The notes beneath the pieces were generated by a model. The model did no database searches, was not told where the DNA came from, and worked only from the letters and a program-made list of their open reading frames with translations. Both the position numbers and the translations under genes were made by a program. Shown here one piece after another: positions 3,191-62,849 of a stretch of DNA of 64,000 nt. The stretch covers positions 22,985,891-23,049,890 of the forward strand of contig NC_091127.1 in assembly GCF_040183065.1 (NCBI RefSeq). Direction: 5' to 3'. Each line of letters starts with the position of its first letter. Position 1 is the first letter of the stretch. This DNA is from Periplaneta americana (lineage: Eukaryota > Arthropoda > Insecta > Blattodea > Blattidae).

Positions 3191-3990
3191 CATATTTATT
3201 ATGGTTTAGGTTTTTTATGTTCAACAGAATTTACATACAGGCTATGATTCTTATGACCATGAGTCGGAAAAATATCTAAGAACTGATGAGGTTTGAAGTA
3301 AGGGGAAAAAAGGTAAAAACCTATAAATCCGGTCCCTAGATATGACTCTTTCGTAATAAAAGTCGCAACCATTGAACAGCTGTAACTAAACTTGGATTGG
3401 TATGCTGAGGAGTACAATGAACACGGAAAGATGACCCGAGAACCTTATCTATGCGAGCCCAAATGGGAGTTATCAGAGCTGATAGCATATTACCGGAACA
3501 AGGGGCGACAGTGAGATATGCGGTCAGGTAAGGGCCGGTCACATGATCCAGATAGCTGCAATACAACGCGCCATTAGCCGTCCCATCAGATCGCGGATGC
3601 GGGTGCTGCCTATAAATCAGGCGCAACTGCCGTCGCGTCGTCAAGCTCGCCACAATTACAGCAAATAATCTGCCTTCATGCAGGTGTCAAATGTGCACTG
3701 TCACGAGAAGAGGTCTTGCGAAAGCCTTCATGACTACAGTGATGATAACAATAATGATCGCTCCCCACATAGATAGCGGGAACACCTCGCTGGACTTAAT
3801 ATTGCTTATTGGAATCTGTGAAATCAGAGCTATGTAAAGTTACTAATACCAAAATATTAATATAAATTGCTTGATTAAAACTTACCAATTTGCTGAATTT
3901 ACTACACTGCTAATAACCAGCTAACACTCACCTGAAACGAAGAAATAATGTGTCAGGTATATGTTTTGCAAGTTACAATAATTAAATAAA
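3191..3990. other. Unassigned stretch with a GC-richer island (about 3330-3700)
   Basis: The 3330-3700 part is clearly richer in G+C than its surroundings and holds a 105-codon minus-strand ORF (3336-3653). The predicted peptide matches no family I recognise and has no obvious domain or signal peptide. It may be part of a repeat or a decayed single-copy sequence. Confidence 0.25.
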
Positions 3991-5430
3991 TACATACATA
4001 ACTAAATAAATACACCAGTAAATAAGTAAATAGGTAAATAAGTAAACAAATAAATAAATACATAACTAATAAACGCATATATATAGTAAATAAATGAGTA
4101 AATAAATCAATAAGTAAATAAATAAAAAATAAATAAAGAAATAAAAAATAAATAAGAAAATAAATACAACAGTAAATAACTAAAAGATAAATAAATAAAC
4201 AAATAACTAAATAAATACATAACTAAATAAACACATAAATAAATGAATAAATGAGTACATCAATCAATAAGAAAATAAGCAAATAAATACATAACGAAAT
4301 AAATAAATAAATAAATAAGAAAATAAATAATTGATTAAATAAAATATAAGTTAAAAAATGAGTAAATAAATAACTAAATAAATAAATAAAATAAATACAT
4401 CAGTAAATAAGTAAACAAATAACTAAATAACTACGTAACTAAATAAACACATAAATAAATGAGTACATAAATCAATAAGAAAATAAGCAAATAAATACAT
4501 AACGAAATAAATAAATAAGAAAATAAATAATTGATTAAATAAAATGTAAGTAAATAAATGAGTAAATAAATAAATAAAAGAGTAGATAAATAAATAAATA
4601 AATAAATAATTGATTAAATAAAATGTAAGTAAATAAATGAGTAAATAAATAAATAAAAGAGTAGATAAATAAATAAATAAATAAAGTAAATACATCAGTA
4701 AATAAGTAAACAGATAAATAAATAAACAAATAACTAAATAAATACACAACTAAATACGTACATAAGTAAATCAATGAATCAAAGAGTAAATAAACAAATA
4801 CATAAATAGGAAAATAAATAAATGATTAAATAAAAGATAAGTTAATAAGTAAATAAATAAATGTGTAAATAAATAAATAAATGAGTAAATAGATAAAATA
4901 ATAAATAAATGTGTAAATAAATAAATAAGAAAATAAATATATCAGTAAATAAGTAAATAGAAAAAATAAATAAGCAAATAACTAAATAAATACATAACTA
5001 AATAAATAAGTAAAAAAATAAATCAATCAATAAATGAGTAAATAACAAATAAATAAATGATTAAATAAAATATAAGTAAATAAATACATAGAGTAAATAA
5101 ATAAATTAGTAAATAAATAAAAAAGAAATAAGAAAATAATCAAATAAGAAATAAGAAAATAAACAAAAAATAATAAATAAACAAATACATATATAAATAC
5201 ACAAAAATAAATTAATAAAGAAGTAAATGAATATATAAATTATTAAATAAAAATAAGTAATTAAATAAAACAGAAAATAAATAAATAATGACAAAAATAA
5301 GTGAATAAACAAATACACAAATAAATACCTAAGTAAATTAATAATTGACTAAATAGATACCTAGATTAATAAATATAGAAGTAAAGAAAGAAATAAATAC
5401 ATAAATAAATAACTAAATAAATAAATCTTA
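3985..5430. repeat. Long degenerate AAAT-type tetranucleotide field
   Basis: About 1.4 kb made almost wholly of AAATA/TAAA words with scattered substitutions. Reading frames through it encode only Leu/Ile/Tyr/Phe-rich low-complexity peptides and are not genes. Several sub-blocks of about 70 bp repeat at a higher order (compare 4540-4600 with 4610-4670), suggesting local duplication after the simple repeat formed. Confidence 0.9.
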
Positions 5431-6440: not shown

Positions 6441-7455
6441 CGTACAGCAGAGTTCGTATAGGTCAATTTCTGACAAATGCGTTTCCAATTCACTGTGGGC
6501 TAAAGCAAGGAGATGCACTATCACCTTTACTTTTTAACTTTGCTCTAGAGTATGCCATTAGGAAAGTCCAGGATAACAGAGAGGGTTTGGAATTGAACGG
6601 GTTACATCAGTTTCTTGTCTATGCGGATGACGTGAATATATCAGGAGAAAATCCACAAACGATTAGGGAAAACACAGGAATTTTACTGGAAGCAAGTAAA
6701 GAGATAGGTTTGGAAGTAAATTCCGAAAAGCCAAAGTATATGATTATGTCTCGTGTCGAGAATATTGTACGAAATGGAAATATAAAAATTGGAAATTTAT
6801 CCTTTGAAGAAGTGGAAAAATTCAAATACCTTGGAGCAACAGCAACAAATATAATGATACTCGGGAGGAAATTAAACACAGAATAAATATGGGAAATGCC
6901 TGTTATTATTCGGTTGAGAAGCTTTTATCATCCAGTCTGTTGTCAAAAAATCTGAAAGTTAGAATTTATAAAACAGTTATATTACCGGTTGTTTTTTATG
7001 GTTGTGAAACTTGGACTCTCTCTTTGAGAGAGGAACATAGGTTAAGACTGTTTGAGAATAAGGTGCTTAGGAAAATATTTGGGGCTAAGAGGTATGAAGT
7101 TACAGGAGAATGGAGAAAGTTACACAACACAGAACTGCACGCATTGTATTCTTCACCTGACATAATTAAGAAAATTAAATCCAGACGTTTGAGATGGGCA
7201 GGGCATGTAGCACGTTCGCATGGGCGAACCCAGAAATGCATACAGAGTGTTAGTTGGGAGGCCGGAAGGAAAAAGACCTTTGGGGAGGCCGAGACGTAGA
7301 TGGAAGGATACTATTAAAATGGATCTGAGATAGGTAGGATATGATTGTGGAGACTGGATTAATCTTGTTCAGGATAGGGACCGATGGTGGGCTTATGTGA
7401 GGTCGGCAATGAACCTCCGGGTTCCTTAAAAGCCGTAAGTAACTTATGGTTCATC
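6441..7455 (+). mobile_element. RTE-like LINE, 5'-truncated, broken RT ORF
   Basis: This is the C-terminal half of a non-LTR retrotransposon reverse transcriptase. The first readable part (6419-6886) has the [14 protein letters not shown] and YADDVN motifs, which is RT with one catalytic aspartate pair (YADD). A second frame (6889-7299) carries the thumb-like region, with [16 protein letters not shown] and [12 protein letters not shown] deletion near 6857 removes the INDTR stretch seen in the copy at 20254-21653 and breaks the frame; a second break lies near 7215. The 3' end is GGTTCCTTAAAAGCC followed by a short GTAAGTAA tail, as in the other copies. A non-functional, older copy. Confidence 0.88.
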
Positions 7456-7512
7456 TTTATAAATAAATATTTGGTTGTATTGTAATAGTTTCAAATACTT
7501 TTATTATAATTA

Positions 7513-8484
7513 CTAGCCGTACCCGTGCGCTCCGCTGCACCCGTTAGAAATAAATACAAAGTAATTACATAATTAAAATAGGACATTTGATCCAGGGAAC
7601 ATTCGTGTTTGATAGAAGAATAAATCGTTTATTATGTTACTTAATTTAAATTGTATTAAACAAATTAAATGGGATCATTTTGATCCAGAGACCACTCATT
7701 TGGTCATAAAAATTATTTTAGGAAATACAGGAAACGAATGTACAGAATAACCTATCAAGTTTTCTGTGTATAAGAAGCTATTTTAATCTTACCTGTCCTC
7801 GATTCACTCAGAAGTTACTGTAATAACATACAGCATTATGTTCATCTAGAGAAACTACACTTTCCAATGGTGAATTAATAATTAATTATACAAATCGGTA
7901 ATTTAGCTTCCGATATTACTTCATACAAACATAGAAACATTTTCTGTAGGCTATGTTTCATAGCTTTCGATTGTTGTTGTCCAAGGCCCCTTATAGACGA
8001 AGTCATTTGTTTTTTATTTCATTACATCGCCTTAGATGGCGTTGTTATTGTAATTTTGAAACTCATTTATCTCATTAAATATCAGTCCTATCAAAATTTT
8101 GCATAGAGTAAAACTTATCGGATATTATTTTTAAAGAAACTTTTGTTATGTAATATTTTTCATGAAAATTAATAATGAGATATTTCCATTTATTTAATTC
8201 AGGCCCCTTTATAACCCCCTTTTGAATAAAACATTTTGAATGCCATATAGCCTAAATTCTAAGTTACAACGAACTTAATTTATATTACAATTTTCATATA
8301 AATCGGTTCAGCCATTATCGCGTGAAAAGGTAACAAACATCCTGACAGACAGAATACAAACAAAAATTTCAAAAAAGCGATTTTCGGTTTCAGGGCGCTT
8401 AATTATATATGTTAGAACCAATTATTTTTGGAAAATCGAAAATTACCGGAAAACTTTCGGCTACAGATTTATTATTAGTATAGA
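7513..8484 (-). mobile_element. Non-autonomous Helitron, copy 1
   Basis: Read on the minus strand it begins TCTATACTAATAATAAATC and ends GTGCAGCGGAGCGCAC, a short spacer and CTAG, next to an A/T dinucleotide. A TC start, a 3' hairpin and a CTRR end are the marks of rolling-circle Helitrons. It is about 972 bp and nearly collinear with the copy at 45656-46638. It has no Rep/helicase gene, so it would need an autonomous relative. The base just outside the 5' end does not fit the usual A-T target, perhaps through later mutation. Confidence 0.8.
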
Positions 8485-9329
8485 CATGAAAATCGTTATT
8501 TAAGATGCGATATGAATGTTAAAATATTATATACTGACAAAATCCGACCAGTAGTTTAGGTGAAATTACTGTACATACACGGAGACATGTCGAGCTCTAA
8601 ACCACCTCTGCGGTATCAGGATGATGCTGAAAACGCGCATTTCCGCAAACATGTGGGAATCGATTTTGCAGATTTACAATATTTCCTCTAATAGAAAATA
8701 CCAGAACAAAAGCTGGCAAAAGAAGAGCTTCATTTAAACCACAAATAGTATTTACAATACACTACGATGGAAAATATTTCCTTATATTGGTTTAATATTT
8801 TTGTGTATTTTAGTTTGAGCAAATATTTCTATCGCTACCGTTTTTTGCACAGTATAAAAATAATAATCAGTACTCTACTAGTGACATGTTTGTATCTGTG
8901 GAGAGTTTCTCTCTGCACAAAACGACATTTACAACAAGCCATCAATAATTTAATTTCCCACTTTAACCCAGCTGGCTTCAATACTATGGATCGCGCGAGT
9001 CAACCGATCAGAAACCACGCCCACGACAGGTCAGGATATTATACAGGCGGAAACAATTGAAAGTTCACATGACGATCAGAGTCGTTGCTAGGATACTGAC
9101 AGTTGCTTATGCATCGCTGTGTGATTGTTTTTGTTTGGGTAAAACGATAACAGAAAATCGTATGTGCGTCTTCAGTCTGGTTAAAGAATTTGGTCTATGT
9201 GCAGAAAGCCTAGTCAAAAGTGGCCAGTTTCTGAAAATGAAAAATAACAGGGAGCTCCTTTTTCTACTGAAATTGCCTTATGAATAAGATTGTTAATTAT
9301 CGGTCAAATTTAGTAAAGGACGCTATGTA
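8485..9329. other. Unassigned stretch
   Basis: Two short plus-strand ORFs (8767-9060, 97 codons; 9057-9287, 76 codons) overlap by four bases. Neither resembles a known family, and I treat them as chance ORFs. Nothing else was recognised. Confidence 0.3.
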
Positions 9330-10084
9330 CAAATTCTTTCATAAGTAACGAGTCTATCGAAAAATTTACAGTAAAACCTCGATAAGACGCGCCCGCTTAT
9401 TACGCTATCCCGTGTAATACGCTTTTTTTTGTCCGGTCCCTGCACATTTCATATATAACGCCTTTATAAAATGCCCCGTTTGTTGCGCTCAAGTCCCGCA
9501 TAATACGCTGTTTTTTGTGGAATATTTTCGATGTAATTTTCAGCAATGTATTGTCATTGCAAGTTATCTTGAACCTTACATCCCCTAAGTCTGTCTTTGG
9601 AACTGCTCGGTACGGCATGTACTCATCAACGTAACGGCACGGCAAGGATGCCCCTCCCTCGGGTAACGTGACTCTTTTCAGAAAACGTTGGTTATTTTAC
9701 CTTACGGCTCTCTACTATAAAAGAACTTGGTTCAATAAGACATCATCTTCTATCGATACTCCGGTTTTGAGAGGAGAACATAGTTTCGTAGCAAGCTTTA
9801 ATTAACCTGTAATGAGTAAGTATTTAAATATAATCGTGTGTACACTCCTCTCTCATCCGGGCTGGGGACCGGCAATGAAGGAGTTACTACAGCTACTTCT
9901 GTACATTATATAGACCTGCATGACTTAACACCTACAGCTGATATGTACATATTCTTATAACAATATTTTACAGGCTTATTATTTGAATATACATTAATTT
10001 ACAATTATACACAATCCATATCCCTATCATTGCTACCATCATCGCTTGTTCCTAAATTAATTATTTCGCCAATGGCATCATCCG

Positions 10085-10202
10085 TTCGGAATTATCTTCT
10101 TAATCGTAGGTACTACTTTCTGAACGAGATAGAATTCTTCGATTGTATCCCGAATGACATGTTGATCGAAGTCGTCTACTTCAAATTTACACAAGTCTAA
10201 TT
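10085..10202 (-). pseudogene. Candidate exon-2 remnant of the same gene
   Basis: After a pyrimidine-rich stretch ending CAG, the minus strand reads LDLCKFEVDDFDQHVIRDTI, then EEFYLVQKVVPTIKKI, then a stop soon after. This DDFD..VIR..IEEFY..KK.VPT..K pattern is what I expect to follow exon 1 in this protein family. With the splice sites as I read them the two frames do not join in phase, so I call it a decayed copy. The intron would be about 130 bp. Confidence 0.4.
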
Positions 10203-10333
10203 CTGGAATGAAATAATATGTTTAGTAGAACTATAAGAAAATAATAACGTGCAACAGTAATGCATTATGTCGCTCTCAATACACACACTATTGTACATAT
10301 CTATTATAGCAATAATAACTAAACATTACATAC

Positions 10334-10770
10334 CTATTCTTTCCCGGAGTAGTGTGAGGTTCATTCGGTTGTAATGCAATATTATTCTTAATTCTCTTCA
10401 CGGAACTAATACTTTTGCCAGAGTATTTAGCCGCTCTCTCATATTCCTTATCAAGAGGTTCCAGTAAATATTTGTTTAATTTTTCCTCCTCGCAACACTT
10501 AATTATATTTGCGATAATTTCTCTTTCTCCGCTGTGGATAACAGCGTTACTTTTTCTCCGCGGTGGTGTGATTTCACCATAATTACTACCCTGTGGTTGT
10601 TGCTCCATGTTAACACTACTGGTACGCAGTGAAGGAAATAGTTCTATGTTTCTTGACAAGAGATTATGATGCAGAGCATGCGCAAACAACTCAGTTGGCT
10701 CCACCCGCGTTACGCGCTTCCTTCCCTCTACCCCTCTGTCCCCGCTCAGAAGGTTCAAGATAACTTGCAA
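10334..10770 (-). pseudogene. Exon-1 remnant of a transposase-derived gene
   Basis: A likely start at the Met near 10608 opens MEQQPQGSNYGE, followed by RRKSNAVIHSGEREIIANII and YERAAKYSGKSISSVKRIKN. This pattern is familiar from the N-terminal helix-turn-helix of many insect uncharacterised, transposase-derived proteins. On the minus strand the exon ends at ..AATAG followed by GTATGT, a good splice donor at 10333. The family assignment is from memory. The upstream part of the 160-codon ORF is probably not coding. Confidence 0.45.
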
Positions 10771-12055
10771 TGACAGTACTGTAACAGCAATGAAACATTT
10801 TGGTCACTGAACTCACTGGTGCCATTAACCTGAAAAGTATTGGTATTCGACCCTATACCCACACATTTATACCTTCATACTTCATACCTTAGTATACCCC
10901 ACCCTCTTGTTACGCTCTCTTATTCGACTCCTTACCTGCGCGCTTAAAGCCTACATACAGTTACAATACCTCACCCTCTTTTTAAACCCTCTCTCTCAAA
11001 CAGCATTCCTCACTCGGCCGTAATAAAATTCTGGAAATTTTTGCTGGGCAGTTTGTTGTCCTTTATTGTATTGAAGTGTCTGTGAATGTGATTACAATGA
11101 GTTACAAAGCGCTTTCTGTGTCGAAAAAATTGGAAATCTTACAAAAGTACGATGAGACCAGTAGGCTACTCTTACTCAGAAACAACTCTCTGATGCATTA
11201 GGAATCCCATCATCGATATTAAGAATGATAATAAAAAATCGCGACTCAATCACTACAGTTGCGACATCGTCGGGAGGATGTAATCGCAGGAAACTGAAGT
11301 GTGGTAAATATGAGGACTTGGAGAACACGCACACGGCAAACAACTATAAATGACTTTTTTCCGAAATAATTAAGTACAGTACATATTGTAAATGTCTTTG
11401 ACGTACAGTACAGTAATTACACAATGGAGCAATACTGTAAAACCTTTCATGAATCATGTATTTCAATAAAGAAAAATGCTAATAGATACTGTATATAAGT
11501 CAAAATTACTATACCCACCTAATATGCGGTACCGGTTAATACGGTGTTTACACCCGGTCCCTTGAACAACGTCTTATCGGGGTTTTTCTGTATTATGGAT
11601 AAGTTTTTGAAATGATGTTCATCCTCACGAGAAAGAAACATTCCCAGTGCCGTACAGTCGATTTGAAAACAAACACCCCCCTCTCCCCCCCCCCGCGCCG
11701 CCAGAGAAAGCTACTTATCCATGTGTAATGTGCATTTGATACAATCTTAAAATGACCTGGAGCATGGCCTCCTATACGCCAACGATAATGCCACACGGCC
11801 ATGCCTATACACATTGTTGTGATATTCTGGAATGATAAAATGCCACGCAGCCGCTTAACGTTATTGCAGAAGAGAAAAATTACAGCCCGTTTTGAACTCG
11901 GAAACAGTGCCGCTCAAATTAAGCGTTTATTTCGTAGACGAAGTATTTCCAGGCAGGTGGATCGATCGCACAGGCCCAATCCGTTGGCCTCCGCGATCAC
12001 CTGATTTGACTCCCCTGGACTCATTTTTCTGGGGATTCATCAAGGATCGTGTCTA

Positions 12056-12236
12056 AGGGTGCTATTCATAGACATTTCGCAGCTCGCGCTACAAGCGTAC
12101 TAAGCTAGCCCCGGTTATCCACTGGTTACTTGTACAGAATTCAGATCATATCCTATCGCTAACACTGGTTTATGAATACGAAACACGCTGATCACCCACC
12201 GGAAACCCGCGCTAAAAATGTCTATGAATACGGCCC
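12056..12236. mobile_element. Small TA-flanked MITE, copy 1
   Basis: Inverted ends carry TATTCATAGACATTT at both termini (AGGGTGCTATTCATAGAC at the left; GTCTATGAATACGGCCC at the right). Taking it out with one TA restores the host transposase reading ..KDRV-YVTKPHII.., so the duplicated TA target is directly demonstrated. The 181 bp are non-coding. A second copy, at about 35940-36809, is split by a solo LTR. Confidence 0.8.
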
Positions 12237-12299
12237 TATGTGACTAAGCCACACATCATTCCTGAATTAGTGGAACGAATTGAACTCTCGTTACAAATG

Positions 12300-13369
12300 T
12301 GGAGCTTGTTTCCAAAAGGTACCAAATCCACAATTTTCGAAAAATGAGTTACAGATGGCAGCACATTCTTAGCTACCTCTAGAACGGAAACACTAACCAT
12401 TTCTCTCGAAAAGTACCAAATCATATCTCCAGAAGCCACTGAAAACAGTGTTTTACAGCAGAAAATACCACATCCATGCTGAGTTTGATGCCAAAACATA
12501 CCAAATCTCTGTGTTCCTATTGGTTCTCAACTTTGCGTCACTGATATGTCGCGAGTTGTGCAGCAATTTCATTGGCTATTGTGATGACGTATTAGTTGTT
12601 TGGGCTGCTGTGACATTAACGAACTTCCATTTTACATTAATATTATAAATTCTGAGTCTGTTATTAGTACAGAGGATGAGGATAACATTGTTGTTAATTA
12701 TGATTAGAACAAACATAGTCTCTATTTTGTGAAATTTAATTAAGAATATTTAATAATATGTATTTAATTTTATAGTGTTTGAGAATAATTCCTGTACATC
12801 CCCATTCATAATACTGAGTTATTCCATGCCAATATCAAAGTCATGTTCAGGATGCTGAGAAAAAAGATTTGAAAGTTTTGCTAGCATCCATGGGCTATTG
12901 TGACATTAACAAACTCCCACTTTAGGCCTATAGTAATTTTATAAATTTTGAGTCTGTTGTTAGAACAGAGGTTGAGGATAACACTGATGTTAATTATGAT
13001 GATTGTAACGGCAAATATAGCCTAAATTTGTGAAATGAAAAATGTTGAATTATGAATTCACTTTTACAGTGATAGTAAATAATTCCTGTACTGTACATCC
13101 CCATTCATAATACTGAATTATTTCATGCCAATATGTACCACATCCAATTTTGTTGCCAAAATGTACCAAATCCAAACTAAAACCATCAATAACTTCTTAT
13201 AAATGTGTGAAATATCCTAAATATATGCCTAAATATGATTGATGACATGTAAAGAATAGTGACACGAAGTCATAACAGTATATAATATTTTTTAAGGCCA
13301 TGAGCAGTTTTTTTCATTTCCTGTAAAATTAGGTCTGTTGGATTTGGTACCTTTTGGAAACAAGCTCCA
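12300..13369. mobile_element. Unclassified TIR transposon with 6-bp target duplication
   Basis: The terminal inverted repeats of about 31 bp start TGGAGCTTGTTTCCAAAAGG and are nearly perfect. CAAATG lies directly outside each end (12294-12299 and 13370-13375). The host coding sequence continues across it (..ELSLQM then VTPDMLARVHE). The 1070-bp inside has no transposase but contains an internal duplication of about 110 bp (12605-12710 and 12894-13008) and several ACCAAATCC-like words near the ends. A 6-bp duplication fits few superfamilies; I leave the class open. Confidence 0.7.
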
Positions 13370-13487
13370 CAAATGGTCACGCCTGACATGCTCGCCAGAG
13401 TCCATGAGTGAGGATGAACATCATTTCAAAAAATGATCCAAAATAGTTAATTTTTCAATAGACTCGTTACTTATGATAGGCTCTGTA

Positions 13488-13720
13488 TTACAATCTTGCT
13501 TACGAATATATTATATAAGTACCACGCTTTTTTTTTTTTTTTTGAGAATGTGAAATTGATCTTTCGAGCAGTTAATGAATTTGTACGGAAATTTTAATAT
13601 GAACACACAGATATTTCAAATTCAATTACTAAATTTATCAAAACTTTGGGTCCCGCAAACTCTGTCATGAACCCAACACTCATCCACTATTGTAACTATA
13701 CTGTTGCCAGTTTTACCCCT

Positions 13721-13769
<49 letters not shown>

Positions 13770-14500
13770 CTATCACCATTGCTATTACTGTTAATTTAAC
13801 AACTTTTTTTTCTTGTATTAGCTTCGTGTTTTTCCAGTCACGTGACACCAATAAGTTTAAGTTTCCGAATAAGATATAAGTATATTATGAGAGTTACGCT
13901 CCCCAGTAAACTAAACAATTTTTAACGAAAAATGAAACTGATGCACGCTCCTAACGTTGTATAAACGGTAATTATATATTAAATGCTTCGTTTCAACTAC
14001 ACAACATGTGTCGATAATAAATCAATGTTCGATTGAGAATGGCTCGCTTTATCCCACAAATCTCACAAATTTTGTCCGGCATCAAACTTTGGTCCCTTTG
14101 ATAAGAAGTTAACTTCATGTGTAGCTGGATCATTTTACTAGCTTGTGACAGAAATTTGTGCATGTTTTCATGATCTCCATACACACCATGAATCTCGCTG
14201 TAACAAAGATCGAGAGTCATTTGTCGCTAAATGAGGACGGACGTCCGCTGTAAAATTACGGCTTGCCATAAAGTTTTTATTAGCCCACTCGTCGGACGAG
14301 GTTTGTATGGGAGTCATGAGACTACAATTTGTCATCCCTAAATCCTCTTCAAACAGGTGAGGATGGGCCATGCAGGATGTGAGTTACAGCGGAGACATGC
14401 AATCCTGCTCTGCCGGGAGCCAACGCAAGGTACGAACCGAGTACCACCTCCAAAATAGAAGCGGAGAATTCTTGAACAATGTACTGACGTTCTGTAGCAT
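13488..14500. other. Unassigned stretch with an ATC microsatellite
   Basis: Holds an (ATC)n tract at about 13721-13769 and short ORFs of unrecognised sequence (for example 13993-14220, minus strand, 75 codons). The 14220-14470 part is GC-richer, but I see no domain. Confidence 0.35.
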
Positions 14501-14501
14501 A

Positions 14502-14545
14502 ATATAATATAATATAATATAATATAATATAATATAATATAATAT
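14502..14545. repeat. (AATAT)n pentanucleotide array
   Basis: About nine uninterrupted units. It directly abuts CAGTGGAGACTCC at 14547, which looks like the terminal repeat of a pogo-like element. Confidence 0.9.
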
Positions 14546-15059
14546 ACAGTGGAGACTCCGTTGGAAACTTCTGTTAAGGAAACTTCTAATTTGGAAAGCT
14601 ACCAGATTCCGCTCACTACAGGAACACCACTCAATACGTTACGGCAGAGATGTCCAAAAGGTGATTCGCGAATCACAGTGTAGTTACTATGCAACCTGCA
14701 ATGTAACCCCCTTCATTCACCCTCCTCCCCCGTAAGGCACCATGACTGCCATAGCGTGTGCTTGATACAGTAAACAAGGCAGTGGCGGGCGTTCCGGACG
14801 TATAAGATGGTTTATGAATGCCTCTGTCCAAGCTTTCGACCTCCAAATTTAATGTAGAGTGGGAACTAGAGTTTCTTCGCTATGAAGATGGTGATAATAT
14901 AAAATGTCTTATATGTTCCAAGACAATTTCCGGCATGTTGAATGGCATTCTCAATATGCTGAGTTACAATGTATTATTGATTATTATAAATATTATTATA
15001 TTAACGTTATTGGATATTATATTACCAGTATTATTGTTATTATTATTATTATTATTACT

Positions 15060-16045
15060 GTTTATTATTTGCAGACGATTTAAAAATTTTTCGTACAATC
15101 AAAAGTAGTACTGACTGTCAATCACTTCAATGTGACATTAATTCAGTCGCTAAATGGTCGGAAGACAATGGTATGACAATTAACGTATCCAAAACTAATG
15201 TAATAACCTTTTCTAGAAAAACTTCTTCACTGAAATTTAATTATTATCTAAATAATGTACTAATTAACAGAACGGATTGCGTAAAAGATTTGGGAATATT
15301 CTTTGACAGTAAATTGTATTTTCATAGTCACGTTGATTACATTTACAATCACGCAATCAGAATGCTAGGAATAATACGGTCAATAACTTATTCTTTTTCC
15401 ACGCCCGATTCTCTTTTAATGCTATACCATACATTGGTGCGATCGAAACTCGAATATGCATCTGTAGTTTGGAACTCGATTACAACTACGGACTCGGCTA
15501 AATTAGAAAATATACAAAGAAAATGTATATCCCTATGTTCATTCAGATTTCTGCCCATTAATTCCGGGTATAGTTATGAGAGAAAATGTGAATATTTTAA
15601 TTGTCAAAATCTATATGCTAGACGCCATGAGCTAGATTATCTGTTCTTTTGTAAAGTCCTCAAAGGTGATATATCCTGTGACTCTTTCTTAAACAATATT
15701 ACCTTACGTATTCCAACAAAAGATATGAGAGCCCACAAACTTTTCTATATTAGAAATTCGAAATTTCTTTCACCAGTCTCCAGATGCATTAAAAATGCCA
15801 ACATGCATGGCTGCGAATTCGATCCCTTCAATCTATAGACTTTGTTTGCTCTTGGCAACGATTTATCATTTATGTATTCTTTTAGGCATTATACTCAATT
15901 AACATTCTCTCATAGTATTCTTAGTTACCCATTCATAGTCATTATTGTAATTGTAATTATATTTATGTGTAATAATTATTTTTGTTTTATGTTTTTGTTA
16001 TATTTGTGCTGAACTGTAATTGGCCAATGGCTGTTGTACAGCACA

Positions 16046-16105
<60 letters not shown>

Positions 16106-16106
16106 A
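15060..16106 (+). mobile_element. Jockey/CR1-like LINE, 5'-truncated, inside the hAT element
   Basis: Starts within the reverse transcriptase at LFADDLKIFRTIKSSTDC, continuing in the long frame 15173-15838 (SKTNVITFSRKTSSLKFNYY, DLGIFFDSKL, LVRSKLEYASVVWNSITTTD), the usual palm/thumb order of non-LTR RTs. The endonuclease and most of the RT fingers are missing through 5' truncation. The frame is open to its natural stop at 15836, though the first part reads in another frame. The 3' end has a stem-loop (GTGCTG ... CAGCAC, 16006-16044) and an (AAAT)n tail. The clade is inferred. Confidence 0.85.
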
Positions 16107-16312
16107 ATTATGCATATTCCCTCATTATTCCAGGAGTAGATTGGGCAAAAGAACTGAGTAACCTGTTAAATAAGCATGCTCTGCATATTGATGTTCCTGC
16201 AACTGACATGACAGAAAAAGAATACTTGTTAGTTAAACTGTGTCATGGGAGATAGCCAAATCTCTCAAATCATTTCAGGAAAGCGAGTTTGTAGAAACAT
16301 GCATAGTTAAAG

Positions 16313-16378
16313 TTATTAAATAAGTATATAATAAATTTCAATCTTAAGATTGAAATTTATTATATACTTATTTAATAA
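16313..16378. repeat. Perfect 66-bp palindrome
   Basis: Every base of the left 33 pairs with the right 33 around a central CTTAAG at 16343-16348, with no spacer. It is the core of a 97-bp insertion (16315-16411) in the hAT coding sequence, flanked by an 11-bp direct repeat TAGTTAAAGTT (16304-16314 and 16412-16422). Confidence 0.95.
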
Positions 16379-16817
16379 TTTACCAGGCATATTGATATAT
16401 AAAATGAATTGTAGTTAAAGTTGCAGAAATTTTGTGCCCCAAAGAATTGCAACACTTTCGCAATTTACACCTTTCTCGACAAACTGTTGCACGAAGAATT
16501 GACATATTTAATGACATATCTAGGCAGATTGATGCTACAATTCATAACTTTTTACATTTTTCTCTCGCTTGAGATGAAAGCAATGATTTGATAGATACAG
16601 CTCAGTTATCTGTATTAATACGCGGTGTTGACAAACAGATTAATGTTGAGGAATTTTTATTAGACCTGATTCCTTTAAAAAGTAACACCACTGGAGTAGA
16701 AATATTCAATGGCGTTTGCTTGTGCGTACATAAACATAATTATTTACAGTATTCAAAGCTAGCGTCCATGGCAACTGATGGAGCCCGTTCCATTGTTGCC
16801 GAGAAAAGGGGTTTTAA

Positions 16818-16907
16818 CCCTCAACTGGTATCTAAGGGTCAATATACCCGTATACCCATATTGCTTGATATCGTAATGTACACTTAAAAAGCGATACCAG
16901 TTGAGGG
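16818..16907. mobile_element. 90-bp piggyBac-type mini-MITE
   Basis: Perfect 15-bp inverted ends CCCTCAACTGGTATC, with TTAA on both sides (16814-16817 and 16908-16911). It interrupts the hAT transposase sequence between ATDGARSIVAEKRG and LKVFLNERGIS. At 90 bp it is among the smallest elements one would expect still to be mobilised in trans. Confidence 0.9.
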
Positions 16908-17477
16908 TTAATTGGCAGACTAAAAGTGTTTCTTAACGAAAGAGGTATATCAGATTTCTACACAGTACGTTGCATTCTTCATCAAGAAGCCCTTTGTGAG
17001 AAAACTTTGAATTTTCAGCACGTCATGGATGTGGTGATACGTAATATAAACAAAATTCGAAACAGCGCAAAGTCAAAATGTAGGACCAGCATTACGGACG
17101 GCCAATAATTACGGTTGGCAGTGTGTGATATAACTCCGGATTTCAATGCAATATTGCTGAAACAAATATGTGAAACTGAAGAAGATTAATTTCAATAGAA
17201 TGCATTTCATTCATTATTATACGTTATCATACTGTTCCAACGTCTATAGTTTATGTATTTATTTGTATTCATTAACAAATTGTAATTCTGAATCAAGTTA
17301 AAGTACATGAACTTCCCCAATGATGTCTAGCATGCAATAAACCCGCCACTGTTCTAGTTAACTCACCTGTCGCTACCTACATCTTCAACCCTCCCACCCG
17401 AGGTCATGAGCTTATGCAATCTACTTGCTGCAAGTGATTCGGAGCAGACGATCCTTTTAGACGCCCATGCGTTACGG

Positions 17478-23980: not shown

Positions 23981-24741
23981 ATGAGAGAGAGATGGAACGG
24001 AGAAAAATTCTCTCCGGCGCCGGGATTTGAACCCGGGTTTTCAGCTCTCCGTGCTGATGCTTTAACCACTAAGCCACGCCGGATACAATCCCGACACCGT
24101 TGAGAATCGTCTCAGATTAAGCTCCATCTCTTGGGTTCCCTCTAGTGGCCGCCCTCTGCACTACGTCATAGATGTCTATGCACGCAGGACCGAAGTCCAT
24201 ACATGTGTAGAGATGCACTCAGATGAGTGACTGGTTGGCCGGGGTCCGACGGTATGGGCGCCGTCTTTAAATCACAAAGTGATTTATTACGCATATCATA
24301 TTTATTTTTGATGTACCGAAGTACATATGATATTTCCATGCAGATATTCTCCTTTCTCAGATGATGAGAGAGAGATGGAACGGAGAAAAATTCTCTCCGG
24401 CGCCGGGATTTGAACCCGGGTTTTCAGCTCTCCGTGCTGATGCTTTAACCACTAAGCCACGCCGGATACAATCCCGACACCGTTGAGAATCGTCTCAGAT
24501 TAAGCTCCATCTCTTGGGTTCCCTCTAGTGGCCGCCCTCTGCACTACGTCATAGATGTCTATGCACGCAGGACCGAAGTCCATACATGTGTAGAGATGCA
24601 CTCAGATGAGTGACTGGTTGGCCGGGTTCAAATCCCGGCGCCGGAGAGAATTTTTCTCCGTTCCATCTCTCTCTCATCATCTGAGAAAGCAGAATATCTG
24701 CATGGAAATATCATATGTACTTCGGTACATCAAAAATAAAT
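23981..24741. mobile_element. tRNA-derived SINE composite with foldback arms
   Basis: A 14-bp direct repeat AGATTCCTATAATG flanks the block (23967-23980 and 24742-24755), so it behaves as one insertion. Two copies of a unit (from about 23981 and 24363) each carry, on the minus strand, a tRNA-like head: TGGCTTAGTGG (box A) and GGGTTCAAATCC (box B). The second unit ends in an inverted copy of its own first 120 bp or so (24299-24420 against 24620-24741), giving a foldback with a second box B on the plus strand, and an AAAATAAATA end. Known SINE biology (pol III promoter, LINE-made target duplication) explains the parts; the two-armed form is unusual. Confidence 0.8.
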
Positions 24742-29877: not shown

Positions 29878-29879
29878 TA

Positions 29880-30894
29880 CAGAGTGATTTATATAGAACT
29901 GACACATTTCTTTCTTTAATTATTCCGTTGGAAATTCATTCAATGACCCAATTTTAGCACCAAATTAAGCAGAATGTTCTGGAGTTTCGATTCCTTGTCA
30001 CTAGATGCACAGATGTTTATGTTTTATTCCTATTGTTGGCAGCGCTGACCCAATTTTAGCACCAAATTAAGCAGAATGTTCTGGAGTTTCGATTCCTTAT
30101 CACTAGATGCGCAGATGTTTATGTTTTATTCCTATTGTTGGCAGCGCTGACCCTATTTTAGCACCAAATTAAGCAGAATGTTCTGGAGTTTCGATTCCTT
30201 GTCACTAGATGCGCAAATGTTTATGTTTTATTCCTATTGTTGGCAGCAGTAGATGCGCAGATGTTTATGTTTTATTCCTATTGTTGGCAGCTGTTTTCGA
30301 CATTTTGTGTCAACGTGAAAATGCAGTACACATTAAATCAACGACTCTTCCTTGTGAAGCAATACTGGATTACGAATTCAATTACAGCTACTCAAAGGGC
30401 ATACCAGAGAGAATTTGGTGTTCGCAATCCTCCTAAAAGAAACACAATACTGGGACTAATTGGAAACAACTGGATCTCTGGTGAGTGAAAAGGGCAAGCA
30501 TCGTTCATCTAGGCTTCCCACGGTTGTTGTTGATGTAAGAGCACGACTGGAGCAGTCACCCAAAAAATAATTAAGACGTTTGTCTTTGAGTTTGTTGAGC
30601 AACTGGACGATGTAGAGCTGAGTCAAGGATATTTTCAGCAAGATGGCGCTACATGCCATACATCAAACGAATCCATGGATCTACAGTAATTGCAAGATTC
30701 TTTGACGACCGAATAATTTCCAGGAACCTGTGGCCACCGAGATCTCCGGATTTGACAATGCCGGACTTCTTTCTATGGGGTTACTTAATCTCCCAAAATT
30801 CCTCTACATTTTAGGTATAATAAGTTGTAGCTAGCACAATTCGTTTTGAAACAATTAATGAAAGAAATGTGTCAGTTCTATATAAATCACTCTG
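29880..30894 (+). mobile_element. Mariner-like DNA transposon (DUF4817/DDE type), deletion derivative
   Basis: Inverted ends of at least 35 bp begin CAGAGTGATTTATATAGAAC, with TA on both sides (29878-29879; 30895-30896). The plus strand encodes a DUF4817-like N-terminus at 30322-30488 (NQRLFLVKQYWI, then TQRAYQREFGVRNPPKRN), then FQQDGATCHTS (30630-30662), which holds the second catalytic Asp of the DDE triad, and LWPPRSPDLT farther on. Large parts between are deleted and the frame is broken. Three 102-bp tandem repeats occupy the 5' side (29945-30250), with a shorter fourth. Confidence 0.85.
29945..30300. repeat. Three and a half 102-bp tandem repeats
   Basis: Units starting GACCCAATTTTAGCACC lie at 29945, 30047 and 30149; a shorter copy of the unit's end (GATGCGCAGATGTTTATG) follows to 30292. 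Unit identity is very high, so the duplication is recent compared with the age of the decayed ORF. Confidence 0.9.
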
Positions 30895-30896
30895 TA

Positions 30897-35939: not shown

Positions 35940-36809
35940 AATGCTAGATATCATATCATATCGCTAACACTGGTTTATGAATACGAAAAACGTTAGTTAG
36001 CTGATCATCCACCGGAAGCCCGCGCTAAGAATATTGTGACAGCGACGTGAGATTCGAACTCACGACCAGCGTCCCGCAAGAGAGCAGATCGCGCGTGAGC
36101 CGACACGGGCTTCACGGAGCACTGAGGGACGGCGCGCGGCGGAGAGAAGAGAGGGGAAAGGGCCTACGCGGCGAGGGAGTTTGCGCGCGCATCTGGTGCT
36201 GGCAGAGAGGAGAAGGATCTGGATTGTTCTCTGGAGTGCTATCTCTGGACACGCGTGGAACTTTCCAGGCTACGTCGCTGTGGTTATAAAAGAAGAAACG
36301 CGATCGAACTTGAGCAGTTTTCAGTTTATTCAGCCAGTCAGTGAGTAAGCCAGAGCAAGCAAGCCAGTCTTGTGTACCGGAGTTCGACTCGAGTGTGCGT
36401 CCGCAACTGTGTCAGCATCCCAAGGCCTGAGTTCGAGTGCAGTGGACCGCAGTTGGAGGGACCTGAGTTCGAGTACAGTGGACTGTCTCTGAAGGTCTGT
36501 GGTTCGAGATACTGTGAACTCTAGTGACTGAGCTAGAAGAACTGTGAACTGAGAACTGACAGTTCTGATTTGTAAATAGTGTTTCATGAACATTAGTTAA
36601 AATTAACAGTTCATTGTTGATCGTAATAGTCCAAGTAAATTGTCATTGTCGTCAGTGGAGTGCTATAACGAATACTGTGTTGAGTGAAAATCCTATTGTT
36701 GACGAGAGCGTTTAAGGTGAATTGTAGAAAGGAATTATTGTTGAGATAATAAAGTTACATTGTTGTTTAGTTGAAATAAATTTACAATATCTATAAATAC
36801 GGACCAAAA
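35940..36809. mobile_element. MITE copy 2, split by a solo LTR
   Basis: ATATCGCTAACACTGGTTTA, then CATCCACCGGAAGCCCGCGC, match the MITE at 12056-12236. After the LTR the rest (CTATAAATACGGACC) matches its right terminal repeat. The left end is degraded or truncated. Confidence 0.7.
36035..36786 (+). mobile_element. Solo LTR (likely Ty3/gypsy-type)
   Basis: A 752-bp block starts TGTGACAG and ends TTTACA, with a 4-bp target duplication ATAT on each side (36031-36034; 36787-36790) lying inside a known MITE, so both edges are well defined. It has a TATA-like TTATAAAAG at about 36283 and AATAAA signals near the end, fitting promoter and polyadenylation parts. No internal coding region remains: a fossil left by recombination between two LTRs. 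Superfamily from duplication length only. Confidence 0.75.
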
Positions 36810-46779: not shown

Positions 46780-47215
46780 ATGGGAGATTCCTCAGAGCTC
46801 AACATGACCCCCATTGTGCACCCTGCACAACTCATAACGGTGATGCAATTCAGCCCATGTCCGTTGTAACATAAGAGGGGTGATTTGTTGAAAAGCTTGA
46901 GTAATTTTTACTCTCAGATCATCAACGTTTCTGGGTTTCTGTATATAGATAATGTCTTTAACAAAACCCCACACGAAGAAGTCAGGAGGAGTTAGATCTG
47001 GGGAGTTTGGGGGTCGGGCCAAGCCAAGAGATAGCTGCTTCTCGTACTGGGTTTCGCCTGCGACTTCCTGCATATTTTTTTAACACAGAAACTGTTTCTA
47101 CAAATGTTCGATACCACAACATTATGGAATCGTATTTAGATAAGTTACGCACACCATACTCACGTCGAAATTCCCTTTGAACTCTTTTAACACTCTCAAA
47201 GAACACATTGTGCCC
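46780..47215 (-). mobile_element. Mariner-like DUF4817/DDE element fragment
   Basis: On the minus strand an N-terminal piece (47206-47100; FFESVKRVQREFRREYGVRN, the DUF4817 signature) is joined almost directly to a C-terminal piece (47073-46792; LGLARPPNSPDLTPPDFFVW, then QITPLMLQRTWAELHHRYEL). The DDE middle is deleted. No inverted ends were found. It belongs to the same broad group as 9330-13485, 29880-30894 and 49455-50531, but its protein differs enough to be another family. Confidence 0.8.
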
Positions 47216-49452: not shown

Positions 49453-49454
49453 TA

Positions 49455-50531
49455 CAGGGACATCATTTTATTTTTACTTCAATTTTTATTGTACCTAGTT
49501 TTTGAATGTACTTCACTCCCACCCCTTCTACTAAGGAAGTTCCAACTCCACACAGAACCAAGACCGCAGATAGTAAGCAGTACTGAGTTACTGAGTATAG
49601 TACGTTCCAGAAATATGTTCGCGTTTTCCAGTGATGAAAGAGCTTTCAATATTGAATCACATTTTCGCACAGGTACTGTCATTTTGCCTACGTCGCATCC
49701 CGATTTCCTCCACCTGCTTCTGCTCGCCCCTCTGTAATAGCTGGGCTGTCTTAGCTCTTTTCTGAAAACATTAATTTGTCTTAGGAATTGGAAGTTTACG
49801 TAATATTATACAGCTCTTTAATTTAACTTAAATAAAAGGGCCTCGTTAAGTAATTAACTGTCACGTGATTTCCTCCCTTTCTACAATCCTGCGGCATAAC
49901 CACTTGGACGGACAGTAGATAGCATGTCTGAGTAATTTTATATTTTCGGGTCGGCCAGAAGTGAAGATTGAATTTACAGTGCGTAGAGTTGGTACAGAAT
50001 TATTTCAACATGAGTTACTAGTACGAAGGACGAAACTGGCAATTGGAATTAGATGCAATAGTCTATAGTGCGATAATATGCACAAAAGAACTGAAGCCTG
50101 TATCGAAATGAACAGCCACCATTTTCAAAATTGTGTTTAAATATTCATATTATGATTATTTTCCAATTTAACTTCTTTCTCTATATTGTACGCTAATGTG
50201 CTGTAGACAGTATAATATACACTGCATAATGAATACGTTCGCATGGATAACTCACTTCGTGAGTAAAAACACTTATTCTTAATACAGTACTGTACTTTGA
50301 TTAAAGAAAAACCTAATGAAAATTATCAAACTCAAAATCGCGATATTTCCTAGTTTACGTAAATGGATGAACTACTTTTCTTCCTTCCTATACCTAGTAG
50401 AGTGATTTGTGTTTTACGCCAGTATCATCGAACTCCAGTCTTGGAGGGGGGAGCAAGCGGTGTTTCCGGTTCTCTAAATGTATAGACAGGTTAATATTAA
50501 AAATGTTAGTAAAAATAAAATGATGTCCCTG
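49455..50531 (+). mobile_element. Mariner-like element (DUF4817 type) with a related empty site
   Basis: Inverted ends CAGGGACATCATTTTATTTT and its complement (AAAATAAAATGATGTCCCTG) with TA outside (49453-49454; 50532-50533). The host repeat at 61.8 kb has the same sequence with a single TA and no insertion, which proves both ends. A short plus-strand DUF4817-like piece (about 49615-49680; MFAFSSDERAFNIESHFRTG) is the only coding trace; the catalytic region is deleted. It is 1077 bp. A partial second copy lies at 1814-2516. Confidence 0.88.
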
Positions 50532-50533
50532 TA

Positions 50534-52460: not shown

Positions 52461-52782
52461 AGAAGCTTTAGGACTGTTTTCCAAAAGGTAGAGGCATAAA
52501 TACTACGTGCGATACAATATCGCCATTAGTGATTTATTTAGAATCTATTCCCTCATTTTACGAAAAACTTACATGAACGAAATTGCATTATACTGGCGCT
52601 GTTAAAAGAAGCGTTCAAACAGCTTCTATGACGGCACGCAAGAGAAAATTACAGTAGCCTACTTGACCTGCCTCAACCGTTACACGGTTTTATTTACATT
52701 GCTGTGGCAACCGTCCAGCATTGTTGCACGTACTTCAGTCATCTCGCTGAGAGAACACAAAGCAACTCTCTTTAGTATAATC
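52461..52782. other. Unassigned stretch
   Basis: No gene recognised. Confidence 0.4.
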
Positions 52783-53453
52783 TTTTCGCTGTAAGAAAAA
52801 TCCTAATATAAACAATAGCACGTGACTGAAGTGAGGCTTCATTGGCCACTGTTTGGCGCCATAGATTCTCAGTACATGTTGCCGCCTACTTTTGTACATT
52901 CTGTTTCATGTTAAACATTTCCCGTCACTCGTCAAGTAGGCCTAACCTCACTACTATGCATTCGTTTGCTTAGGAATCATTTACTTTAAAATTACTGTCA
53001 TTAAAACTCACATAATTTATTACATACATTTAAGACTATTCGTTTTTCTCCACTTTTCAGAGGGTTTCCACTCTTATGTTTAATAATCACACACACCGAG
53101 GACGCAGAAGCCTTCACGTGCTTACTTGAACAGCTACGAGCTCAAGTGACGCCAGCTTGTTACAAGAACAGACTACCTTAGTATTACTGTTGGTATTCAT
53201 CCGCGTTCATAGTACATAACAAAATATAAAATTAGCTTTTCTTTTACATAGCTTTTTACGTATGAGTGAAGTTGTATGTTTCATTGTATTTAACAACTAG
53301 AATTTAATTTTTTATTTTCAAATAATACAAGATTATGGTTTCCAAATACGGACTATATTTTCCTGCGTTGTGTGACTGTTTCGACTGTGAGCCAATCACG
53401 GATATGACAGTCATGTGCTTGTGTTTACATTAGGATTTTTCTTACAGCGAAAA
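52783..53453. mobile_element. Non-autonomous TIR element
   Basis: About 45-bp inverted ends starting TTTTCGCTGTAAGAAAAATC, ending (complement) CACGTGACTG/CATGACTG. The 671-bp inside is non-coding and AT-rich. The target duplication is not clear: AGTATA occurs close to but not at both edges. Confidence 0.65.
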
Positions 53454-53639
53454 CAGTATAGAAGTGTTGCTGTCATTGTTTCTTCAGGATTTTAATTTTC
53501 GTTGTACAGTTAATTTTAAATATAATATATACTGTATGTAATCAAACGAATAACATAATTCGTGAAAGTGCATACTGCGAGTATATGCAATCGATATCTA
53601 CTGCGCGATATATAGCGTCAGTGAAATTGGTGACGAGTG

Positions 53640-57041: not shown

Positions 57042-58096
57042 TCTACATACTAATAATAAATCTGTAAGCGAAATTTTTCTGGTAATTTTCGATTTTCCAA
57101 AAATAATTGGTGTTAACATGTATAATTAATCGTCCTGAAACCGAAAATCGCTTTTTTGAAATTTTTGTTTGTATGTCTGTCTGTCTGTCTGGATGTTTGT
57201 TACTTTTTCACGCGATAATGGCTGAACGGATTTCAATGAAAATTGGAACATAAATTAAGTTCGTTGTAACTTAGATTTTAGGCTATATGGCATTCAAAAT
57301 ACTTTTCTGTCTGTCTGTCTGTCAGTCTGTCTGGATGTTTGTTACCTTTTCACGCGATAATGGCTGAACGGATTTCAATGAAAATTGGAACATAAATTAA
57401 GTTCGTTGTAACTTAGATTTTAGGCTATATGGCATTCAAAATACTTTTCTGTCTGTCTGTCTGTCAGTCTGTCTGGATGTTTGTTACCTTTTCACGCGAT
57501 AATGGCTGAACGGATTTCAATGAAAATTGGAACATAAATTAAGTTCGTTGTAACTTAGATTTTAGGCTATATGGCATTCAAAATACTTTTCTGTCTGTCT
57601 GTCTGTCAGTCTGTCTGGATGTTTGTTACCTTTTCACGCGATAATGGCTGAACGGATTTCAATGAAAATTGGAACATAAATTAAGTTCGTTGTAACTTAG
57701 ATTTTAGGCTATATGGCATTCAAAATACTTTTCTGTCTGTCTGTCTGTCTGTCAGTATGTCTGGATGTTTGTTACCTGTTCACGCGATAATGGCTGAACG
57801 GATTTCAATGAAAATTGGAACATAAATTAAGTTCGTTGTAACTTAGATTTTAGGCTATATGGCATTCAAAATACTTTTCTGTCTATCTGTCTTTCTGTCT
57901 GTCTGGATGTTTGTTACCTTTTCACGCGATAATGGCTGAACGGATTTCAATGAAAATTGGAACATAAATTAAGTTCGTTGTAACTTAGATTTTAGGCTAT
58001 ATGGCATTCAAAATACTTTTCTGTCTGTCTGTCTCTCTGTCAGTCTGTCTGGATGTTTGTTACCTTTTCACGCGATAATGGCTGAACGGATTTCAA
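57042..58096 (+). mobile_element. Helitron copy 3 with expanded inner tandem array, 3'-truncated
   Basis: Starts TCTACATACTAATAATAAAT, collinear with the first 250 bp of the full Helitron (45656). From 57191 the inner GGATGTTTGTTACC...TCTGTCTG block is repeated seven times. The expected second half and the 3' hairpin/CTAG end are absent: at about 58096 the sequence passes directly into an RTE-like LINE. It inserted into the LINE that ends at 57041. Confidence 0.82.
57175..58096 (+). repeat. Seven-unit tandem array, 142/146-bp period
   Basis: GGATGTTTGTTAC words start at 57191, 57333, 57475, 57617, 57763, 57905 and 58051, giving periods 142, 142, 142, 146, 142, 146. The 4-bp steps are single CTGT gains or losses in the (CTGT)n joining part. 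Apart from these, the units are nearly identical. Confidence 0.95.
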
Positions 58097-60680: not shown

Positions 60681-61186
60681 AAGTGTTCTATATAAGCTTT
60701 TGCTCTTTTGAAAGCTTACTACAGTAAAACCCCGATTATCCGCCACCCTATTAACCGATTAGCGGATTATCCGATTCTTTATCGGTTTTTTTTTCTCTGC
60801 TGAATAAAATATGAAATATGCCCTACTGCACAATGTTGATAACTTTTTTTTTTTTTTTTTTTATTACAAAGCTTTACCATTACACAACATGTAATAGAAA
60901 TTCTGCTGCTGCCGGAAACAGAAATAGTTATTTGTGGAAGGGCTGTTTTTCCCAGCTTCTAAAATTGTCACTACCTTCTTTCAAAGAAATAACCCCAAGA
61001 ACTTCCAGACAATTGCTAACCCTTGCACCACTCAGTCTGCCTTCCACGGATATCAAAAGAAAATCTGTTGTATTATTTATTGGGGGGGGGGGACTAATAA
61101 TTGAGCGGTTTAGAAAAGGACCTACCGCAGCAGAATACGAGATTGGAATTACAACTGTGCCTCATTTAATAAAAAACAGTCCACAC

Positions 61187-61412
61187 CTGCGGAGCAACGG
61201 TTAGCGCTTCTGGTCGCCAAACCAGTTCCAGTCGGGGCAAGTTATCTGGTTGAGGTTTTTCCGGGGTTTTCTCTCAACCAAATTTGAGCAAATGCTGGGT
61301 AACTTTCGGTGCTGGACCCTGGACTCATTTCACTGGCATTATCACCTTCATCTCATTCAGACGCTAAATAACCTAAGATGTTGATACAGCGTCGTAAAAT
61401 AATCTACTTAAA
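61187..61412 (+). mobile_element. tRNA-derived SINE
   Basis: Head GGAGCAACGGTTAGCGCTTC (box A-like) and CAGTTCCAGTCGGGG (weak box B), then a body GGTTTTTCCGGGGTTTTCTC, GCTGGGTAACTTTCGGTGCT and TTGATACAGCGTCGTAAAAT. It matches the minus-strand fragment at 27167-27350. It interrupts the Tigger HTH sequence. Confidence 0.75.
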
Positions 61413-61512
61413 AATTAATAAAATAGAAAACAAGGGTAATATTCTATGTACATATTATTTTACTACATTGTATTTATTGGTTATAACCAGCATAATATTG
61501 TATAGTGTAGTG

Positions 61513-62666
61513 CAGTGATGTCAAAGCATGCGCATTTTTCTGACCTTGACGTCGTGCGCGGGCAGCAAGCACTAAGTTGTGTATATGAATAAGCAACCTG
61601 TTGGATTATGAAAACAGTGGTGCACAAACTTCAAACGGAACGTGAAATTTTATGTCGTTATTTTTATATGGCTTCTTTCTGTTTAATATTATCTATATTG
61701 TCTGTAAAACAAAAGTACTAACACTGATTTCTTAATATTGCACTTGTGTTTTAAATCTTAATAACATAATAGAGAGTTAAGAAGGAATATTCACTTAAAT
61801 TCCATAGTAGTATAATATTATACTGTATTAAGTGGATGAAACACATCATTCATAAAGAAAGTGATATTCCAAAGAAAGAGATTGAGCAGGACATGATAAG
61901 TTGGAATTTATATTGATGGTATCTTTAGCCTTACAAAAGTAATCAATAAACTAATCAAAACAATATTACAGCACAAAGCAAAGTTACCTAGGTACTGTAT
62001 CTGTTTTAAGTGTAGCTAATATTACATAACAAAACTCTTATCGCATTATGCTTTTATGGTGATATTTGTGAGCAACTTCCTATCATTAGGATATTAAATT
62101 ATTTTCTCGAAATCTGCTGAAGCTATAAGCCTAGAGCTGATATTTTTACAACACATGGGCACGTATCTTTTGTTTATGATGTAACAGTAGTTCCTTTGTT
62201 AATTAATTTCCTTACAAACAATTTCCATGCGAATATTTTCAAAATTTTCAATACACTATCTTCAGTAATACGTATATACGGTATATTAGATTTACGAAAA
62301 CATTCTTTAAGGCTACTAAATAAATAGGCCTGAAAATTTCACTTTTCTATACGAAAAGTTGAGAAAATATTTCTTTTGAATAAAAAAAAATCAAACTTGT
62401 GAAAAATGAGCATTGAAATTAAAAGTTACATTCTTATAATACACTTATACTTCTCAGACAAATCTAAAAATTAACATTGATACAGTTTTAATAACTTCTC
62501 TTCCCTTTATGTATTGAATCAGTGCTGGCCAACCCTGGATATAGCTCGACTAAGCGGCATATACCACCTCTTTCGTCTGTCTCTTTCCTTTCCGCTGTAA
62601 AGCGCTCAGGCTCTCCTGGGCTCTAAAGCGCGCGCTTGCTCCTGTGGGCATCAATTGACATGCCTG
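61513..62666. mobile_element. hAT-like element, copy B
   Basis: The left end CAGTGATGTCAAAGC and, on the minus strand at the right, CAGGCATGTCAATTG are similar; the 8-bp flanks GTGTAGTG (61505-61512) and GTGTTGTG (62667-62674) differ at one position. Similarity with the copy at 49138 starts exactly at this CAG. A GATATTTGTGAGCAACTTCC segment (about 62063) may be a trace of the hAT C-terminus (ICEQL). It carries the empty TA site (about 61812) for the element at 49455. Confidence 0.65.
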
Positions 62667-62849
62667 GTGTTGTGCATAGTATGAAGAGCGAGTGGTTGCA
62701 GTGAGACAGGAGCTTTAAATTACGAAACTGTAAATACTCGTATTATGAACTTAATTTATGAATTTTATATGGTACTGATTACCCAATCTTTTAGATTAAC
62801 TGTCCAGTCCATCCCCTTCATTACCACGGATAATAGAGGTTCTACTGTA

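Follow-up and report, generated by a model that had tools for sequence, protein, structure and literature searches.

How many transposable elements lie between positions 9328 and 13487 of this window (the whole 64,000-nucleotide stretch of Periplaneta americana DNA that was analysed), and does one truly contain the others? Nested transposons are common, and the preliminary description read this region as a nest of four elements with three readable target duplications: a mariner-like element holding a Tigger element, a MITE and a 1070-bp TIR element. All four are indeed present at base resolution, but the count is five, an inner element at 9551-10776 having been overlooked, and we conclude with high confidence that five dead DNA transposons are nested here on three levels, the whole nest (9328-13487, plus strand) comprising the outer mariner-like element and its flanking TAs. 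The direct inserts in the outer element are three (the Tigger-like element, the MITE and the 1070-bp TIR element), and the fifth element sits within the Tigger-like element, not directly in the outer one. The three duplications are likewise all there; two of them are 2-bp TAs, which are weak evidence alone, and the argument is carried by the third, CAAATG, together with two checks of continuity, one of a terminal repeat and one of a reading frame.

The first of these checks concerns the ends of the outer element, which occupies 9330-13485 between TAs at 9328-9329 and 13486-13487 and measures 673 bp once the three elements inserted directly into it are taken out. As had been described, it has a TA at both ends and carries inverted repeats. 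Repeat scan and alignment place its left TIR in two plus-strand parts, one running up to the Tigger-like element (9330-9368) and one following it (11593-11628), and its right TIR in a plus-strand stretch (13370-13485) that also holds the right CAAATG and the end of the transposase tail (stop at 13409-13411). The preliminary description had proposed aligning the left repeat, minus the Tigger, with the right one: with the Tigger-like element and one TA removed, 64 of 72 columns match (3 gap columns, score 55), as compared with a top score of 17 among 20,000 random 80-mers taken from the rest of the window on both strands. Specifically, the stretch directly 3' of the Tigger-like element continues the outer repeat with a score of 30 (the best of the 6,030 other plus-strand TA sites reaches 13), and the TA that served as the Tigger target is paired, in the same alignment, with a TA of the right outer repeat. 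The Tigger-like element thus lies at a TA inside the left terminal repeat, which resumes after it, and the terminal repeats match across the nest as claimed, with the exception of their outermost six bases, which fall outside the local alignment and agree at only three of six positions. It is this poor agreement at the extreme tips that lends something to a different account of the locus, in which the outer pairing is fortuitous or an old inverted duplication and the elements were brought side by side by rearrangement, not nested. A rearrangement, however, would give neither an outer repeat that resumes in register after the Tigger-like element nor a protein that reads through the sites of the MITE and the 1070-bp element, and we assign this account almost no probability. 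A sixth, larger element enclosing the nest was also considered and rejected, as the left flank (6500-9327) and the right flank (13488-17000) yielded only matches with E values of at least 0.10.

Insertion into the outer element is also visible in what remains of its transposase. These remains begin with a weak, helix-turn-helix-like N-terminal remnant of 34 aa (11840-11941, plus strand), which has a weak CENP-B_N-like match (E 0.043, below the cut-off), and continue in a different frame as the first part of a catalytic tail (11946-12055, plus strand). Only four bases separate remnant and tail, and the middle of the transposase is therefore gone; the element lacks the stretch carrying the first two acidic residues of the catalytic triad, whose DD34D spacing would mark mariner proper. 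The tail resumes after the MITE (12239-12299, plus strand), ends there in the left CAAATG, and is completed beyond the 1070-bp element. When both inserts are removed, it reads as 68 residues in one frame to the stop, in agreement with the earlier claim that the MITE lies in catalytic coding sequence and that the protein reads through once it is taken out. At the MITE joint the frame alone is no test, because MITE and TA together add 183 bp, which is divisible by three; left in place, however, the MITE makes a stop with its first codon in the tail frame. Beyond the 1070-bp element the frame is informative, since the element plus CAAATG is 1076 bp, which is not a multiple of three. Tail residues 15-66 also align, without gaps and across both joints, to a mariner-like sequence elsewhere in the window (46858-47013, minus strand; 26/52 identical, 50%, E 7.8e-14). 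That sequence is another mariner-like catalytic tail, around which no clear TIR pair was found.

Among solved structures, a relative of the tail is the Sleeping Beauty transposase (PDB 5cr4), which resembles residues 8-52 (45 residues, E 0.0036) in an alignment that crosses the MITE joint and has its one gap elsewhere, and from which the outer element differs in keeping only the tail. The only other structure match listed was an unrelated homeobox protein (E 0.6), and searches of the joined tail against Pfam (E up to 5) and NCBIfam (E up to 1) found no model. Where Sleeping Beauty has its third acidic residue, the tail reads D, as in mariners. With a TA at both ends, TIRs, and a catalytic tail related to Tc1/mariner transposases, the outer element has the attributes of the Tc1/mariner group.

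The Tigger-like element (9369-11590, plus strand; TA at 9367-9368 and 11591-11592) is 994 bp long without its inner element, and its TIR (CAGTAAAACCTCGATAAGACG) matches the opposite end at 19 of 21 positions. Its two ends belong together, scoring 17 as an inverted pair and 16 as a direct subterminal repeat where the maximum among 4,650 random pieces was 15.5, and between 9369 and 11590 we find the TA duplication and CAGT-type TIR of Tigger/pogo elements. A putative Tigger transposase remnant with a CENP-B-type N-terminal helix-turn-helix is spread over two frames (11097-11353, plus strand); when the two frames were joined by an X, it matched CENP-B_N at E 0.0056 and 16.7 bits, below the cut-off of 21.2, and the CENP-B structure 1hlv at E 0.77, ranked under an unrelated chain. 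No catalytic part of a Tigger transposase was recognised in the element. The family names for several parts of the nest are weakly founded. Elsewhere in the window, 60720-62849 has TA flanks and ends (CAGTAAAACCCCGATTATCCGCCA) with 18/24 inverted matches, a value within the shuffled control, and is perhaps a second Tigger-like element.

Inside the Tigger-like element lies the fifth and innermost element, of 1226 bp (9551-10776, minus strand; TA at 9549-9550 and 10777-10778). The repeat scan paired 9548-9577 with 10750-10779 in inverted orientation; trimming to the TAs gives 9551-10776, and beginning at the second base the ends so defined hold 26/26 perfect inverted bases. Its TA duplication and TIR are those of a Tc1/mariner element, and its open frame of 171 aa from stop to stop (10288-10803, minus strand), which has no Pfam match, may be the exon for the N-terminal part of a Tc1/mariner-type transposase of insects. 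The site lies in non-coding Tigger sequence, so the frame offers no check of 9551-10776 as an insertion, and one might hold that the locus has four elements only and that this segment is a native part of the Tigger, for example a captured fragment moving along with it. A 26-bp perfect inverted repeat placed exactly within TA dinucleotides argues against this, as do ends unlike those of the Tigger and a frame on the strand opposite to the Tigger remnant; a native origin is in our judgement very unlikely, and we retain the segment as an element in its own right, inserted in the Tigger.

The 181-bp MITE (12056-12236, unstranded; TA at 12054-12055 and 12237-12238) is short and has a TIR and a TA duplication, as MITEs do; elsewhere in the window it has one partial relative, at 35950-36032, which corresponds to an internal stretch of it (84% over 83 bp). 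The 1070-bp non-coding TIR element (12300-13369, unstranded) bears out its earlier description, with CAAATG on both sides (12294-12299 and 13370-13375) and a perfect TIR of 31 bp; when flank lengths of 2 to 11 were tried at these ends, the two flanks were identical only at length 6. No coding part was recognised on reading its open frames, and a frame lying partly within it (13270-13425) gave no convincing match in the protein search. The element contains an internal duplicate of ~240 bp (77% identity) and seven TACCA(A/C)ATC motifs, none of which occurs in the other 62,930 bases of the window. Going by its sequence, it might represent an undescribed family or superfamily of DNA transposons in which transposase-binding sites are clustered near the ends, a proposal that we consider unlikely.

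How much weight the tips of these elements bear by themselves can be gauged from a scan of the whole window for inverted repeats that are flanked by TA and match at 17 or more of 24 bases, after a complexity filter. The scan found 106 pairs, several of them overlapping registers of one repeat, as compared with 34, 32 and 29 pairs (best values 18, 19 and 18) in three Markov-model windows. Among the best 40 of the 106 pairs are the inner element (23/24), the Tigger tip (19/24) and the outer repeat in a register further in (22/24; 20/24 at the tip itself); the MITE pair is absent from these 40. The Tigger and MITE tips alone do not exceed the control and stand on other evidence.

Several further features of the window deserve mention. 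A TA-flanked pair at 29878-30896, with 24/24 inverted bases (CAGAGTGATTTATATAGAACTGAC), is probably another deleted mariner-like element; between its ends lie a 102-bp tandem array (3 copies) and, at 30731-30787, a fragment of a mariner-like catalytic domain. A second TA-flanked pair with 24/24 inverted bases (CAGGGACATCATTTTATTTTTACT), at 49453-50533, probably marks another TIR element, and a TA-flanked inverted pair at 52776-53460 has 22/24 matches. On the minus strand, 24012-24083 and 24395-24466 are tRNA-Ser(GGA) genes that score equally; they lie within a 269-bp duplication of 99.6% identity, and about 121 bp of this duplication recurs after it as an inverted copy (99%). Finally, there is a long degenerate AATA array at 3977-5426 (1450 bp, 67% matches) and a tandem array at 57162-58096 (142-bp unit, 6.5 copies, 96% matches).

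Relatives of the nested elements were also sought in viral, prokaryotic and plasmid collections. The outer catalytic tail returned 35 pattern stretches in viral contigs and 578 in genome contigs, none of them confirmed, and none in plasmids, and the 21 pattern stretches returned for the inner-element peptide in viral contigs were likewise not confirmed. Searches with exact patterns, taken from the outer TIR, the 1070-bp TIR, the inner TIR and the MITE, gave 0 matches each in these collections. An 18-base outer-TIR pattern occurred in three viral contigs, where nothing further matched with E below ~0.06; these matches are taken as chance. Absence from the collections says little, since they are prokaryotic and viral and the locus is eukaryotic.

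What order of events does the nest record? The DNA itself shows the boundaries and target duplications, which element contains which, and that both the repeat and the reading frame continue across the inserts; the outer element is the oldest level, as first proposed. Because of the nesting, the relative order runs from the outer element to the Tigger to the inner element, and the outer element is older than the MITE and older than the 1070-bp element; among the Tigger, the MITE and the 1070-bp element, nesting gives no relative order. Dating by TIR divergence was dropped, as the repeats are too short and were possibly never identical. On the reading that we favour, the locus began as a non-autonomous mariner-like element of 673 bp, its internal part presumably already deleted, between two TA dinucleotides, and three elements then entered it by separate cut-and-paste insertions, each with a target duplication: a Tigger/pogo-like element in the left terminal repeat (TA), the MITE in the catalytic-tail sequence (TA), and the unclassified 1070-bp TIR element farther along the same frame (CAAATG). 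After the arrival of the Tigger, a Tc1/mariner-type fifth element inserted into it (TA). Each element was presumably deleted before it inserted and may have been mobilised in trans by intact relatives, and the nest probably has no present function.

The locus is a well-resolved new example of an already known, ordinary kind of genome debris, and leaves knowledge of transposons in general unchanged. Its value is that of a clean worked example, in which the continuity of the repeat and that of the frame, checked independently, both confirm a reconstruction made by eye; it also orders five transposon families in part and supplies exact ends for all five, usable in a repeat library. That younger elements interrupt older ones, such that nesting yields relative age, is the basis of the interruption analysis described in PMC2517846. 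The nested clusters treated there resemble ours in that nesting is read as relative age, and differ in that they come from mammalian genomes at genome scale, whereas here we have a single locus of DNA transposons. Also comparable are non-autonomous lineages of Rhodnius prolixus, both mariner and Tigger-like, for which PMC4678618 describes TA duplication and internally deleted mariners, as well as a Tc1-mariner element nested in a MITE. Among the Tigger-like ends given there for Rhodnius prolixus is TACAGTACAACCTCGAT (PMC4678618), which resembles TACAGTAAAACCTCGAT in the present element, a comparison made by eye and of the ends only.
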